NCBI GenBank assembly: GCA_000961655.1
Contig: LADR01000059.1
Span: forward strand, 1 to 40,229
Length of the DNA: 40,229 nucleotides
DNA from: Desulfatitalea sp. BRH_c12
GTDB taxonomy: Bacteria; Desulfobacterota; Desulfobacteria; Desulfobacterales; Desulfosarcinaceae
Direction: 5' to 3'
Below the pieces are notes generated by a model. That model was not told the DNA's origin. It worked only from the letters and a program-made list of their open reading frames with translations, and did no database searches. Shown in pieces: positions 10,852 to 20,792 of the stretch. The position numbers were made by a program, and so were the translations under genes. Numbering within the stretch: position 1 is the stretch's first letter; every line of letters starts with the position of its first letter.

Positions 10852-12012
10852 CTAAGTGTTCTGACCGGGCGCAACCACCTGCAGCAGCATGAAGCAATGG
10901 GCGAACCGGCCGCTTTCGGGAATGAAGCACAGCAGACGCTGTCCGGGCGATAACTGGCCGCTGGCAAAAAGGTCGGCCAGAATGATGAAGATCGCGGCGC
11001 TGCCGGTGTTGCCCTTGGTGGTTAAGTTGGTGAACCATTTGTCATAGGGAATTTCGAAGCCGACCGCGCGCATGCCTTCATAAAAACGCGGCCGGAAAAA
11101 GGCCGACGAATAGTGGGGCAGAAACCAGTCCACCGCATCCGGAGTAAGCTTATGCTTGCTGGTCGCCGCCGCCAGTGCACGACCCATCGTGGGCACGATA
11201 TGTTTGTCCAGGATCTTGATGTCCTGTCGGACATTGTAAAGATATTGTTTCTGTTCTTCGGGAATGGCTTCCATCTGGCGCCAGCCGGTCATGCCGCCGC
11301 CATCTTTTTTGACGCCGCCGCCGTACATGCAGGTTTCCAGCTCACCGGAAAAAGCGTAGTGTTCGATCCATTCAACGCGCAAAGACAGGCGATCGGCCGA
11401 CGGCGTATCGGATAGATAAACCGCTCCGGCCCCGTCCGAGAGCATCCAGCGTAAAAAATCGGCGTCGAAAAGACGTATGGGATTTTTTTCCAGGTCAGCA
11501 TTCGGGGCGCCGTCCATCGTGAAAAAGGCTGAGCGCATATAGGAGGAGGCCAGTTCGCTGCCGGTCGCCACCGCGTTTCGGCTGCAGCCCGCGGCAACAT
11601 TGAGATAGGCGAATTTCATGGCCGTCATGCCGGACAGGCAGATGCCGCTGGTAGTGACGGCTTCGCAGGGTGGCAGGCTGAGTTCTCCCATAACCATCAG
11701 GGCGTGTCCAGGAAAGTGCAGGTCGGGACTGGTGGTGCCGCAGCACAGGCATTCGATGTCATCGGTTTTAAAACCGGCATGAGGCCGCAGGCGCCGGATA
11801 GCCTCCGCAGTCAACTGGGCGTTGGTGTGCGTCAGGTGGCCGGTCGTGGGATCGATGGCGTAATGCCGCTGTTGGATCTGATTGTTGCGCAGCACGATTT
11901 TCTTGGTGCGTGATGGCAAGTTGTTCACTTTACCCAACACCGTTTCGATGTTCTGGTTGTCCACTGGCTGATTGGGCATAAAGGCGGCAACGTCCGTAAT
12001 GTATACACTCAT
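10852..12012 (-). CDS. darB: DarB-like ketosynthase III (dialkylresorcinol/cyclohexanedione synthesis)
   Basis: A 386-residue thiolase-fold ketosynthase of the KAS III type. The catalytic triad is visible: Cys125 in TSGICLSGM, His300 in FLPHYSS and Asn335 in KGNTGSA. The opening YITDVAAFMPNQPVDN, the block KIVLRNNQIQQRHYAID and HTNAQLTAEAIRRL match what I recall of DarB/StlD-type enzymes rather than FabH. These join two beta-ketoacyl-type chains into a 2,5-dialkylcyclohexane-1,3-dione. The ATG at 12012 follows AAGGAAGAG and overlaps the darA stop as ATGA, so the two genes are translationally coupled. The pairing with a DarA-like gene is the strongest support; DarB names a subfamily, so the exact chain lengths are unknown. 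Confidence 0.78.
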   Translation of the reverse strand: MSVYITDVAAFMPNQPVDNQNIETVLGKVNNLPSRTKKIVLRNNQIQQRHYAIDPTTGHLTHTNAQLTAEAIRRLRPHAGFKTDDIECLCCGTTSPDLHFPGHALMVMGELSLPPCEAVTTSGICLSGMTAMKFAYLNVAAGCSRNAVATGSELASSYMRSAFFTMDGAPNADLEKNPIRLFDADFLRWMLSDGAGAVYLSDTPSADRLSLRVEWIEHYAFSGELETCMYGGGVKKDGGGMTGWRQMEAIPEEQKQYLYNVRQDIKILDKHIVPTMGRALAAATSKHKLTPDAVDWFLPHYSSAFFRPRFYEGMRAVGFEIPYDKWFTNLTTKGNTGSAAIFIILADLFASGQLSPGQRLLCFIPESGRFAHCFMLLQVVAPGQNT

Positions 12013-13037
12013 ATGGCACTCTTCCTTATAGAACGCGGATTGGTGTGGTTGCTTCCGGCCGACCCGGCGGGCGGCTTGTGCACTGCCGAGGCAGGCGGGC
12101 AATGGCCGCACAGCCCTGCATTGTAACTGTTCTTTTCAAAGTAAGTCACCAGACTTCTGATCTTATCGTGCTTGAGATGCTGCAGTACGAAGGTGACCAT
12201 TGTTGCCAGAGGAGCAATGAGAAAAATCGCGGTGAACAGATATCCGATGAACAAGCGTAACCGCGGTTTGCGGGCAGGGGCTTTCGCACCGCCCTGTCGG
12301 CCGATAAACTTTGCCCAGACGGCAAATATTTTGGAAATACGCTGCTCGAAAAGGATGTAAGACGGTACAACGCGCACAGCCCCCCGGGGGATCAGTTCGG
12401 ATTGCACGTCGTCCCAGCGGTCGTTGTGCAAGGCGTTCAACAAGATGGGGCCGAAACGAGCCGCGTTAACGATATCGTCATCAGATATGCCCGCCTTGGG
12501 GAAAATTTTCAGGAATGGATCTTTGCGGCCGGTCAGCATCCAGGCGGTAATTGAAATGACGCCCAGCAGGTTAGGGGCGTTATCCTGGAGCACGATGTTC
12601 CCGGCGAGCCTTCCCTGGTGCCCAACGATGGCCGCCTTGACCTTTTCGTGGGCCTGCAACCACATGTTGCGGCATCCGATGATCGTCGTTACCGGGCGGT
12701 TGCGCATGACGCGTGCGGCTTCGGGGCTTTGCAGGAAAGCGGCGATCGGGATGCTTGGAGACAGGTACCATACCTGGTAAGCTAAAATGATGCCATCATA
12801 ATGGGCGTCGGGATCGAATTGCAGTGGTTCGAGCGGGCAGCCTCGCTGCTGCAAGGATTCAGGAAAAACGTCTGTAAATTCAAGGGCTGTCCAGGGAAAA
12901 GGATAGGGGGTGCGCGGGCGCAACTGCTCAAACACCAGTTGAACCTGCCCACTGTCCGCGAGGGGTTTTAGCACCGAATCGACAATTCGGGTCAGTTGCC
13001 CGGTTTGGGAATAGTAAACGACCAGCAGTTTCTTCAT
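12009..13037 (-). CDS. darA: DarA-like flavodoxin-fold dialkylresorcinol condensing/aromatizing protein
   Basis: A 342-residue protein. The N-terminus LLVVYYSQTGQLTRIVDSV is a flavodoxin-type phosphate-binding loop, followed by PRTPYPFPWTALEFTDVFPES and ILAYQVWYLSPSIPIAAFL. These features match what I recall of DarA proteins, annotated as dialkylresorcinol condensing enzyme and proposed to aromatize the cyclohexanedione made by DarB. A hydrophobic segment at about 260-287 (FIGYLFTAIFLIAPLATMV) suggests membrane anchoring near the lipid substrate, and a short basic tail follows. It is the first gene of the darA-darB pair, with a four-base stop/start overlap. No acyl carrier (darC) or aryl polyene genes are adjacent. 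The family call rests on recognition, so a generic flavodoxin-like protein is the alternative. Confidence 0.72.
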   Translation of the reverse strand: MKKLLVVYYSQTGQLTRIVDSVLKPLADSGQVQLVFEQLRPRTPYPFPWTALEFTDVFPESLQQRGCPLEPLQFDPDAHYDGIILAYQVWYLSPSIPIAAFLQSPEAARVMRNRPVTTIIGCRNMWLQAHEKVKAAIVGHQGRLAGNIVLQDNAPNLLGVISITAWMLTGRKDPFLKIFPKAGISDDDIVNAARFGPILLNALHNDRWDDVQSELIPRGAVRVVPSYILFEQRISKIFAVWAKFIGRQGGAKAPARKPRLRLFIGYLFTAIFLIAPLATMVTFVLQHLKHDKIRSLVTYFEKNSYNAGLCGHCPPASAVHKPPAGSAGSNHTNPRSIRKSAI

Positions 13038-17919: not shown

Positions 17920-18088
17920 CCCACCAGCTTGTGGCCCGTTGGGCCTTGATAGGGAAGACGGTGTGAATCCGTCGCGGACCCGCCGCCGTAACCGAGGACG
18001 AACGCCGATAGTATGTCACTGTCCGCAAGGATGGGAAGACGCGGCAAGTAGAACGATTCGGAAGCCGGAAGACCTGCTTGCTTGCGAT
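17920..18088 (+). promoter_or_regulatory. Cobalamin (adenosylcobalamin) riboswitch
   Basis: The leader shows the ordered conserved blocks of the B12 riboswitch: AGGGAAGACGGTGTGAATCC at 17951-17970, the internal GACCCGCCGCCGTAACC segment, TCACTG at 18016-18021 and GGATGGGAAGACG just after, then the B12-box-like AGCCGGAAGACCTGC at 18063-18077. It precedes two cobalamin-synthesis genes on the same strand and is followed by an intrinsic terminator, so binding of the coenzyme should switch transcription off. The ends are estimated from the outermost conserved blocks. Confidence 0.92.
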
Positions 18089-18145
18089 TTGTTCTTTACT
18101 CCTCGTGGTATGGGAGTCTAGATATTTTCAGGGATTAAAAACGGT

Positions 18146-18182
18146 ATCCCCGGACCTGCCCGCAGGTCCGGGGATTTTTTTT
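18146..18182 (+). terminator. Intrinsic terminator of the B12 riboswitch
   Basis: A perfect 14-bp stem, ATCCCCGGACCTGC (18146-18159) against GCAGGTCCGGGGAT (18162-18175), with a two-base loop, is followed by a T-run through 18182. It stands between the riboswitch and the CobD-CobQ start codon. The upstream GGGAT at 18131-18135 can pair with ATCCC at 18146-18150, which would break the terminator stem and could act as the antiterminator. Confidence 0.92.
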
Positions 18183-18209
18183 GCCCAAATGCATATTAAA
18201 GGTGGCCCG

Positions 18210-20792
18210 ATGTCTTTCGAACACGGTGGCTACATTCGTGAGTTGGCCGAAACGGCCGGATGTGAAACAGAGCAGCTTTTGGATTTCAGCGCCAATATCA
18301 ACCCTCTGGGCCCGCCGGAAAAGTTGCGCAGCGTCATCGCCAGACGCTTGGCTGAAGTGGCGCATTACCCCGATCCGCATAGCAGGAACTTGTGCGAAGC
18401 GATTGCCGCGCACTTTCGGATTTCTTCCGCGCAGGTGGTGCCCGGTAATGGCTCAACGGAGTTGCTCTATGCGCTGCCGCGCGTGCTGAACGGTCGCCGC
18501 GCAGTGATTCCCGTCCCCAGCTACCTCGATTATGCCACTGCAGTAGAACGCGCCGGACTGGAAGTGCGCTTTTTGCCCCTGGACGAGCGCAATGCCTTTA
18601 AAATCGACTGGACCGTCGTCAGCAGTCACTTGCAGGGGCAGGATATGGTGATTGCCGGGCAGCCTTGCAACCCCGTCGGAACCCTGTTCGATATCGACAG
18701 CCTGCTGGCCTGTGCGGCGCGGCATCCTGCGACCTTTTTTGTCATCGATGAAGCCTTTGCCGATTTTATCCAAGAGTATCGGAGCGTCATTGCGTATCAA
18801 CGGCCGAATATCATTGTTCTGCGCTCCATGACCAAGTTCTACGGTTTGCCCGGCATTCGCCTGGGATACTTGCTTGCCCCGGCGGTCATTGCGCGGCAAC
18901 TGCGCGAATGGTTGCCGCCCTGGTCGGTGGGAACACTGGCCCAGGCTGTCGGAGAAGCTGTCCTGGCACAGGACGCCTACGCGGGTCGCACGCATTCGGA
19001 ACTGTGTGAAGGCAAAGCCACGCTTTATCGCGCTTTGTCCGAAATGATCGGCATCAAAGTATATCCTTCCTCGGCCAACTTTTTTCTGGCGCGCTTGGAG
19101 CGCTCCGATATGGATGCCCGCGATTTGGCCCGGCGTCTGTTATCCGAACGCATCGCCATACGGGTGTGCGATAACTATCGCGGCCTGGATCGCAGGTACT
19201 TTCGCGTGGCCGTGCGCACCCGCGCTGACAACGAGCGGTTGGTTGATGCCATGACCCGTTTACTGGGTACCGCTGCGGGATGCAAAGCCACAGCGGTCCG
19301 GCGGCGCACGCCAGCGATCATGCTGCAGGGCGTATCTTCCAATGCCGGCAAAAGTGTGTTGAGTGCCGCGTTGGGCCGCATTCTGCTGCAGGACGGCTAT
19401 GATGCGGCGCCCTTTAAGGCGCAGAATATGTCGCTCAATTCGTTCGTGACCCGCGATGGCTGCGAGATGGGGCGCGCCCAGGTGGTGCAGGCCCAAGCCT
19501 GTCGGCGAGATCCGGACGTGCGCATGAATCCGGTGTTGCTCAAGCCCACAGCCGACAACGGCTCACAGGTGATTGTGATGGGCAAGGCCGTCGGCCACAT
19601 GACTGTGGCGCAATATATCGATTTCAAACCCCGGGCGTTTGCGGCTGCGCGTCAGGCTTACGACGCGCTGGCGGCCGAAACGGAGGCGATCGTGATCGAG
19701 GGCGCCGGCAGTCCCGCCGAGGTCAACCTCAAGCGCCACGACATTGTCAACATGGCCATGGCGCATCATTCAGGGGCACCGGTGCTGCTCGTCGGGGATA
19801 TCGACCGGGGCGGTGTATTTGCGTCATTCGTAGGCACTTTCGAACTTCTTTGCGAAGTGGATCGCCGAACCATCGCCGGTTTTGTGATCAACCGGTTTCG
19901 CGGCCAACCGGATCTGCTGCACGACGCCCTTGCCTATACCGCCAATTATACGGGCGTGCCTACCTACGGGGTGGTGCCGTTTATATCCGAATTGGGCATT
20001 CCCGAAGAAGATTCGGTCAGCTTCAAATGCGGCGCCACGCTCGCTCGGCCGGTAGCAGCCGACAATGCCGTCTCGATTGCCGTCATCGATCTGCCGCATA
20101 TCGCCAACTTCACCGATATCGATCCGCTGCGGTTGGAGCCGGACGTCGATCTGCGGGTGGTGCGCCGGAGCGAGGAACTGGGCAGACCGGATGCGGTCAT
20201 CGTGCCGGGCAGTAAAAACGTGCTGGATGACCTGGCGCACCTGCGCCGCATCGGTCTGGCCGAAAGGCTGAGCGCATTGGCCCACGACGGAAAAACGCTG
20301 CTGATCGGTATTTGCGGCGGCCTGCAAATGTTTGGGGAGACGATTGCTGATCCGCATGCGATCGAATCGGCCCGCGGCGTGCAACCGGGTCTTGGGCTGC
20401 TGGCCGGTGCCACTGTACTGGCACCTGAGAAAGTGTTGCGCCTGACCACTGCCCGGCATACCCCTTCGGGTCTATCGATCAAAGGCTATGAGATTCATCA
20501 TGGCCACACCGCAGCGCCTGGATCGCGTGTGGCGTTTGTCCGCGACGACGGTGAGGCGGTCGGATTCTTTTCGGAAAATGGCCGCGTGATCGGCACCTAT
20601 CTGCATGGGGTGTTCGACGATGATGCCTTCCGGCGCTGGTTTGTCGACGATCTGCGCCGCCGGCGCGGCCTGACACCGTTGCTGCACATCCAGGCATTTT
20701 TTGATATAGAACCGGCCCTGGACCGCCTGGCCGCTACCGTGCGCGCACATTTGGATGTTGGCCGGATTTACAGGAAGATGGGGCTGAAATGA
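18210..20792 (+). CDS. Threonine-phosphate decarboxylase-cobyric acid synthase fusion (CobD-CobQ)
   Basis: An 860-residue two-enzyme fusion. Residues 1 to about 355 are a PLP aminotransferase-fold L-threonine-O-3-phosphate decarboxylase (CobD): LLDFSANINPLGPP, VIDEAFADF, and the PLP lysine Lys209 in SMTKFYGLPGIRLGYL. It makes (R)-1-aminopropan-2-ol phosphate, the nucleotide-loop linker. From about 365 the protein is cobyric acid synthase (CobQ/CbiP): AIMLQGVSSNAGKS, PFKAQNMSLNSFVT, LLVGDIDRGGVFASF, then a glutamine amidotransferase domain with nucleophile Cys702 in GICGGLQMFG and GTYLHGVFD. It amidates adenosyl-cobyrinic a,c-diamide. The start at 18210 follows AAAGGTGG and lies after the terminator. 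The frame is continuous with no stop between domains. It overlaps cbiB by four bases. Confidence 0.93.
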   Translation: MSFEHGGYIRELAETAGCETEQLLDFSANINPLGPPEKLRSVIARRLAEVAHYPDPHSRNLCEAIAAHFRISSAQVVPGNGSTELLYALPRVLNGRRAVIPVPSYLDYATAVERAGLEVRFLPLDERNAFKIDWTVVSSHLQGQDMVIAGQPCNPVGTLFDIDSLLACAARHPATFFVIDEAFADFIQEYRSVIAYQRPNIIVLRSMTKFYGLPGIRLGYLLAPAVIARQLREWLPPWSVGTLAQAVGEAVLAQDAYAGRTHSELCEGKATLYRALSEMIGIKVYPSSANFFLARLERSDMDARDLARRLLSERIAIRVCDNYRGLDRRYFRVAVRTRADNERLVDAMTRLLGTAAGCKATAVRRRTPAIMLQGVSSNAGKSVLSAALGRILLQDGYDAAPFKAQNMSLNSFVTRDGCEMGRAQVVQAQACRRDPDVRMNPVLLKPTADNGSQVIVMGKAVGHMTVAQYIDFKPRAFAAARQAYDALAAETEAIVIEGAGSPAEVNLKRHDIVNMAMAHHSGAPVLLVGDIDRGGVFASFVGTFELLCEVDRRTIAGFVINRFRGQPDLLHDALAYTANYTGVPTYGVVPFISELGIPEEDSVSFKCGATLARPVAADNAVSIAVIDLPHIANFTDIDPLRLEPDVDLRVVRRSEELGRPDAVIVPGSKNVLDDLAHLRRIGLAERLSALAHDGKTLLIGICGGLQMFGETIADPHAIESARGVQPGLGLLAGATVLAPEKVLRLTTARHTPSGLSIKGYEIHHGHTAAPGSRVAFVRDDGEAVGFFSENGRVIGTYLHGVFDDDAFRRWFVDDLRRRRGLTPLLHIQAFFDIEPALDRLAATVRAHLDVGRIYRKMGLK

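Follow-up and report, generated by a model that had tools for sequence, protein, structure and literature searches.

Probable core genes of a dialkylresorcinol pathway in a sulfate reducer of the Desulfatitalea group, with the gene set spread over three contigs

Does a lone darA-darB pair on a contig of Desulfatitalea sp. BRH_c12 belong to a working dialkylresorcinol (DAR) pathway, and if so, where are the other genes and how might the aromatic ring be made in such a host? We addressed these questions for the window, that is, the whole stretch of 40,229 nucleotides analysed here. Our answer, which we hold with good confidence, is that the window carries two core genes of a dialkylresorcinol pathway whose genes lie on three contigs of a sulfate reducer of the Desulfatitalea group. 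It builds on the gene identities, the intact catalytic residues, the predicted fold, the co-occurrence of partner genes and their single cluster in a relative, from which we infer the chemistry, the cofactor, the electron acceptor, the ester and the export. The genome contains dsrA (611.8 bits) and, judging by the Desulfatitalea group, its owner is presumably an obligate anaerobe.

The product of darB scores 521.9 bits against the StlD/DarB model NF005293, passing its cut-off of 450, and falls short of the stricter dialkylresorcinol DarB model NF053539 (439.2, cut-off 550), so we file it under the StlD/DarB family and not as an exception-level DarB. Models of FabH type give scores well under their cut-offs (TIGR00747, 67.2 bits against 292.1; NF006829, 83.3 against 249), and a PDB search returns StlD (5gk0) at E 9e-119 with the top FabH at E 1.9e-13; in the PDB alignment, Cys125, His300 and Asn335 coincide with the Cys, His and Asn of the crystallised enzyme. 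A tree of 90 rows, from which nine duplicate-contig loci and rows shorter than 300 residues were left out, unites the window DarB with four genus relatives (100/100), followed outwards by four relatives from the order (96/87) and three more Desulfobacterota (81/88), while some further members of the order fall outside this group at positions that the tree does not resolve. A branch of 100/100 separates DarB from four KAS III-type paralogues of its own genome, two of which sit on very long branches and are unsure in their placement. We reject a FabH-like enzyme on the sub-cut-off FabH scores together with this tree. The ATG at 12012 is the most likely start codon of the gene, in preference to a GTG further upstream (12111).

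Table 1. Features of the darA-darB region, in window coordinates.
Feature	Coordinates	Strand	Basis
darB, StlD/DarB family ketosynthase, 386 aa	10852..12012	-	NF005293, StlD 5gk0 match, tree
DarB catalytic Cys125 codon	11638..11640	-	alignment with StlD
DarB catalytic His300 codon	11113..11115	-	alignment with StlD
DarB catalytic Asn335 codon	11008..11010	-	alignment with StlD
ATGA shared by the darA stop and the darB start	12009..12012	-	sequence
darA, flavodoxin-fold DAR aromatase family, 342 aa	12009..13037	-	homology, predicted model, fold search
SQTGQL loop, DarA residues 10-15, presumed FMN phosphate loop	12993..13010	-	alignments, fold matches
C-terminal hydrophobic helix, DarA residues 254-288, presumed membrane anchor	12174..12278	-	model, hydropathy
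Extra C-terminal tail of the window DarA, about 37 aa	12012..12122	-	alignments, low pLDDT

The case for DarA is built differently, from homology and synteny, because the Pfam and NCBIfam models give no match to the protein. It is homologous over its full length to DarA proteins that stand beside DarB in dar and flexirubin clusters, sharing 38-70% identity with 59 DarA from named records, and a single-sequence search against solved flavodoxins returned none at E<=1. Its predicted structure (pLDDT 90.5) has an FMN-flavoprotein or flavodoxin-like fold by fold search. Receptors among the top Foldseek rows we take for artefacts, their structures having presumably been crystallised with a fused flavodoxin. 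Alignments and fold matches to FMN proteins suggest that the SQTGQL loop may bind the FMN phosphate: Ser10, Gln11, Gly13, Gln14 and Leu15 are invariant in 16 aligned DarA, and across 60 aligned sequences Gln11 and Gly13 remain so, with Gln14 conserved in at least 90%. Towards the C-terminus the best 19-residue window, from residue 267, reaches a mean hydropathy of 2.35, and such a window occurs in the C-terminal part of all 60. Rough dN/dS values against three genus relatives are 0.11-0.20 for darA and 0.09-0.18 for darB, dS being near saturation in both cases. The preliminary description, a DarB-type ketosynthase with an intact Cys125/His300/Asn335 triad next to a DarA-like flavodoxin-fold protein with a membrane segment, thus holds for both genes, and neither of the outcomes that would have told against it was found: DarB does not group with ordinary FabH, and DarA is no ordinary flavodoxin, since DarA proteins of named records match it far better than any solved flavodoxin does.

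The ATGA overlap between the two genes, from which a coupling had been read, is present, but it is not general. Among 83 loci with both genes and a readable DarB start (ten named duplicates excluded), a four-base overlap occurs in two, the window and L068, and a one-base overlap in 12; the nearest relatives have gaps of 65 (L054), 85 (L055), 85 (L057) and 70 bases (L056). We therefore reject the overlap as a conserved coupling, and regard it as brought about by the extra tail of the window DarA, which the other 15 DarA of a 16-sequence alignment lack and which is mostly disordered in the model (pLDDT about 45-56 over residues 311-342). The neighbouring lipoprotein gene was also correctly described; it encodes a DUF4410 protein and lies upstream of the pair. 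Its relatives adjoin darA in two genomes (G002 and G049) and were not seen at the remaining loci compared alongside them, and for this reason we leave it out of the dar module. Elsewhere in the window (18078-20792, plus strand) a 904-residue reading frame appears, by eye, to join a CobD/HisC-type aminotransferase to a cobyric acid synthase in one protein.

The pair had been called stand-alone, which is true of the contig and untrue of the genome. No dar partner was found on the window contig; the matches to BtrH, permease, dehydratase and a chain length factor (CLF)-like protein are all on other contigs. Contig C58 encodes, within 5 kb, an acyl carrier protein (ACP), a ketosynthase, the CLF-like protein, DarE (with BtrH_N and DUF4872 domains), DarD and the dehydratase, and contig C48 encodes an ABC permease and ATPase, so that the dar set of this draft genome is spread over the window contig, C58 and C48. 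An Azoarcus-type set (ACP, ketosynthase, DarD, DarE, ABC pair) is hence complete, but not one cluster, bearing in mind that the ABC ATPase and ketosynthase matches come from large families and count for little on their own. The dehydratase is identified by 72% identity to the copy in the relative G001; that copy fails an ApeP-like model (23.0, cut-off 27), whereas the dehydratase of G003 passes it (30.2). The CLF-like protein has Gln at the Cys position, from which we presume it to be a chain length factor, and DarE we take to be an acyltransferase. Partner genes at the loci were located by tblastn, with the DarD of G001 as the DarD query, because calling the longest reading frames hid genes behind antisense frames (DarE in L104, for example) that tblastn recovered.

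The genome (G000, 98.45% complete) has no match to the aromatic ammonia-lyase family PF00221, which makes a tyrosine-derived flexirubin unlikely, and we have rejected that product. Of 12 genomes, only G002 has a PF00221 match; it falls in two separate reading frames (C7 145271-146649; L187, L188) about 22 kb from the DarE of that genome. Contig C82 of the window genome holds an aryl polyene (APE)-like cluster at 95000-114900 (L225, with L248 upstream). From a family scan of ten of its proteins, it comprises a ketosynthase-ketosynthase fusion, two more ketosynthases, an ACP, LolA, an acyltransferase, a B12-radical SAM protein and ApeP-like and ApeI-like dehydratases, both below their curated cut-offs, along with a large membrane protein that is exporter-like by eye and has no Pfam match. 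Ketosynthase and dehydratase matches of this type also occur in genus members without dar genes.

Comparison within the genus, which had been proposed as a check, gives a divided picture: one species has the set in a single cluster, whereas splitting is common among the others. Presumed names are isolate SURF_4 for G001, Desulfatitalea alkaliphila M08but for G003 and Desulfatitalea sp. UBA4791 for G008. In D. alkaliphila (L056) a single run of about 10 kb contains dehydratase, DarD, DarE, CLF-like protein, ketosynthase, ACP, DarB, DarA, permease and ATPase. In G001 one contig carries darAB together with the ABC pair and a second carries the remaining dar genes, while G002, assembled in seven contigs, has three separate places (darAB with the ABC pair; DarD-DarE-dehydratase; ACP-ketosynthase-CLF); G008 appears to be split like G002, but its assembly is fragmented. 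The window genome is the only one of the six dar-bearing genus genomes in which the ABC pair lies away from darAB; in the other five it adjoins them, downstream of darB in four genomes, on the far side of darA in G003. Eleven genus genomes were compared, and darB is present in six of them, above the cut-off in five (G000, G001, G002, G003 and G008) and cut in G005, where the contig starts inside the gene; four genus relatives whose contig spans the region keep darA beside darB. DarE (BtrH_N), the permease (at least 50% identity) and the CLF-like protein (at least 59%) occur in each of the six darB-bearing genomes and in none of the remaining five, counts that include each query's own copy, are uncorrected for relatedness and draw on two darB-negative genomes that are incomplete (86% and 64%). 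G013, from the same family, combines DarB and DarE with a permease at 39%; DarA gave no match there, and CLF-like matches did not exceed 27%.

DarA occurs in 18 of 194 genomes of the order and DarB above the cut-off in 21 of 297 genomes sampled from the phylum (about 7%), the window genome included in both. At the 20 phylum darB loci other than the window, the fetched stretches contain DarA in eight and DarE in 14, which are lower bounds since several stretches are short contigs. The 12 Desulfobacterota loci with darB and no darA in the fetched stretch (L235-L246) have DarE in eight cases and no dar partner at all in three (L242, L244 and L245), and L238 ends at a contig end; the product at these loci might stay a cyclohexanedione. 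Among 80 named DarA loci, DarB lies within the fetched stretch at 72, an ABC ATPase at 57, and DarD, DarE and a permease at 52 each. Of these loci 51 are flanked by at least 9 kb on either side, and in that subset DarB is found at 49, DarD at 42, DarE at 43, the ATPase at 46 and the permease at 44. In Desulfobacter vibrioformis (L114, 10001-10918) and at L112 a DarA homologue stands beside FabF-type ketosynthases with no DarB in the fetched stretch, and at L070 (G171) and L072 (G153) one accompanies several FabF-type ketosynthases and a KAS III-like protein that is very divergent (about 24%); these sets may represent another pathway that uses a DarA-type flavoprotein. Plasmid searches yielded three Streptomyces records with distant DarA and nothing closer; in plasmids from Prevotella nigrescens and from Phocaeicola salanitronis (L078, L080) a DarB-type ketosynthase adjoins a TetR regulator, and DarA was not found in the fetched stretch. 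The expectation that an alkylresorcinol-type product would be surprising in an anaerobic deltaproteobacterium is therefore weak, given this frequency of DarB and the resorcinol cluster class already on record for Desulfobacterota in the accessible text of PMC11834409. Resorcinol and Desulfobacterota are both mentioned in PMC12918008, whose accessible text does not connect the two. Our literature search found no gene-level or chemical account of DAR in the phylum.

We propose a pathway in which the C58 set of ACP, ketosynthase, CLF-like partner and ApeP-like dehydratase, perhaps assisted by fatty acid synthesis, would supply 3-oxoacyl and 2-enoyl thioesters. DarB would join these into a 2,5-dialkyl-cyclohexane-1,3-dione, which DarA, as a membrane-anchored FMN flavoprotein, would oxidise to the 2,5-dialkylresorcinol. 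The BtrH-like DarE would probably acylate the resorcinol from an acyl-ACP, and export of the lipid would fall to the ABC-2 transporter of C48. Aromatisation of the cyclohexanedione is a two-electron oxidation, and in a host that presumably lives as an obligate anaerobe DarA should hand the electrons to a carrier other than O2; the quinone pool, perhaps menaquinone, is the natural guess because the hydrophobic end of DarA is conserved. A more elaborate version would have the sulfate reducer make an arcuflavin-like ester of polyene and dialkylresorcinol, with DarA aromatising without O2 and passing FMN electrons through its membrane-anchored end to menaquinone, DarE coupling the resorcinol with a polyenoyl-ACP made by the C82 cluster, and the exported product serving as an antioxidant against brief oxygen exposure; we consider this rather unlikely as a whole and offer it as speculation.

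The two genes darA and darB could by themselves turn ordinary fatty acid intermediates into a free dialkylresorcinol, a signal or a lipid, and the bare window contig would suit this, as would two reports, each available in part: darB and darA of C. pinensis yield DAR in a heterologous host (PMC3992019), and a darC mutant of P. chlororaphis makes less HPR but still some (PMC6403133). We think it improbable all the same, for the partners are present in trans, track darB across the 11 genus genomes and are contiguous with darAB in D. alkaliphila. The fate of the ring raises a different doubt. DarB may be active and yet the pathway end at a 1,3-cyclohexanedione for want of oxygen, DarA having some other redox role, as a dsrA-bearing host and the absence of darA from the fetched stretch at 12 of the 20 phylum darB loci (one at a contig end) would allow; however, the window darA is kept beside darB at the rough dN/dS given above, the same adjacency is maintained in the four relatives whose contig spans the region, and P. 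chlororaphis darA mutants, like darB mutants, make no HPR according to the accessible part of PMC6403133, so that this too seems quite improbable to us.

The remaining suggestion concerns the carboxylase that lies near the pair. The propionyl-CoA carboxylase (PCC) operon noted earlier is there, its reading frame starting 384 bases downstream of darB (385 had been given) on the same strand, and this closeness is what speaks for a neighbouring acyl-CoA carboxylase feeding malonyl- or methylmalonyl-CoA to the pathway and giving branched products. The proposed supply has not stood up, and we judge it very improbable. The dar stretches of the five other dar-bearing genus genomes (G001, G002, G003, G005 and G008), two of them short at 5.3 and 10.3 kb, contain no PCC subunit and have ABC genes there instead; moreover, DarB condenses two preformed acyl thioesters rather than malonyl-CoA. 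Most simply, the adjacency is an accident of the window genome.

If the pair does belong to a dialkylresorcinol pathway with its partners in trans, a gene set familiar from pigments, antifungals and signalling is placed at gene level in a sulfate reducer. Reportedly, as cited in PMC3949708, Fuchs et al. in 2013 counted 89 strains with the cluster. The genus also offers a natural case of the same dar set forming one cluster in one species and lying in two or three places in relatives, and in split genomes a cluster-based scan would see a two-gene orphan. Whether DarA depends on oxygen also becomes testable: should the resorcinol form anaerobically, DarA must use another electron acceptor, for which the conserved hydrophobic end would be suited.

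A close likeness is with the dar locus of Azoarcus sp. BH72 (azo0283-0293), which, as printed in the accessible text of PMC3949708, encodes DarA aromatase, DarB cyclase, DarC ACP, DarD, BtrH-like DarE, an ABC transporter (DarF and DarI) and the ketosynthase DarJ; there DAR and a polyene are combined in arcuflavin, and the two polyene loci are unlinked to each other. On that gene content the two organisms have in common DarA, DarB, an ACP, DarD, a BtrH-like DarE, ABC ATPase and permease and an extra ketosynthase, as well as polyene-type loci elsewhere in the genome. They differ in that Azoarcus has one locus and the dsrA-bearing window host three contigs, and in that a dehydratase and a CLF-like protein accompany the dar genes of the host, unlike the printed Azoarcus set. 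In Desulfobacterota of glacier streams the available text of PMC11834409 reports 'other' clusters as mostly aryl polyenes and resorcinol, the latter named as a class without genes; phylum and broad class agree with the window, and aryl polyene clusters occur alongside. The flexirubin clusters of Bacteroidota (C. pinensis, F. johnsoniae), as far as the accessible text of PMC3992019 goes, are another close known system. Many fetched Bacteroidota loci, which stand here for the type-strain proteins of those two species, have darA-darB close to DarD, DarE, an ABC pair, ketosynthases and an ACP, like the window host set, but flexirubin-type loci add an ammonia-lyase, present in the stretch at 29 of the 80 named DarA loci, that was not found in the window genome. 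StlD acts in stilbene synthesis. The Photorhabdus enzyme (PDB 5gk0-5gk2) is homologous to the window DarB over its full length, with identical catalytic Cys, His and Asn. In Pseudomonas chlororaphis darABC-SR, darA and darB are the pair required for HPR, in the part of PMC6403133 available, and it is the same pair that occurs in the window; no gene like darS or darR is among the window neighbours read, and the ACP of the host is on another contig. The window pair is thus a further member of a known dar pathway, ordinary as a family and unusual as to its place.
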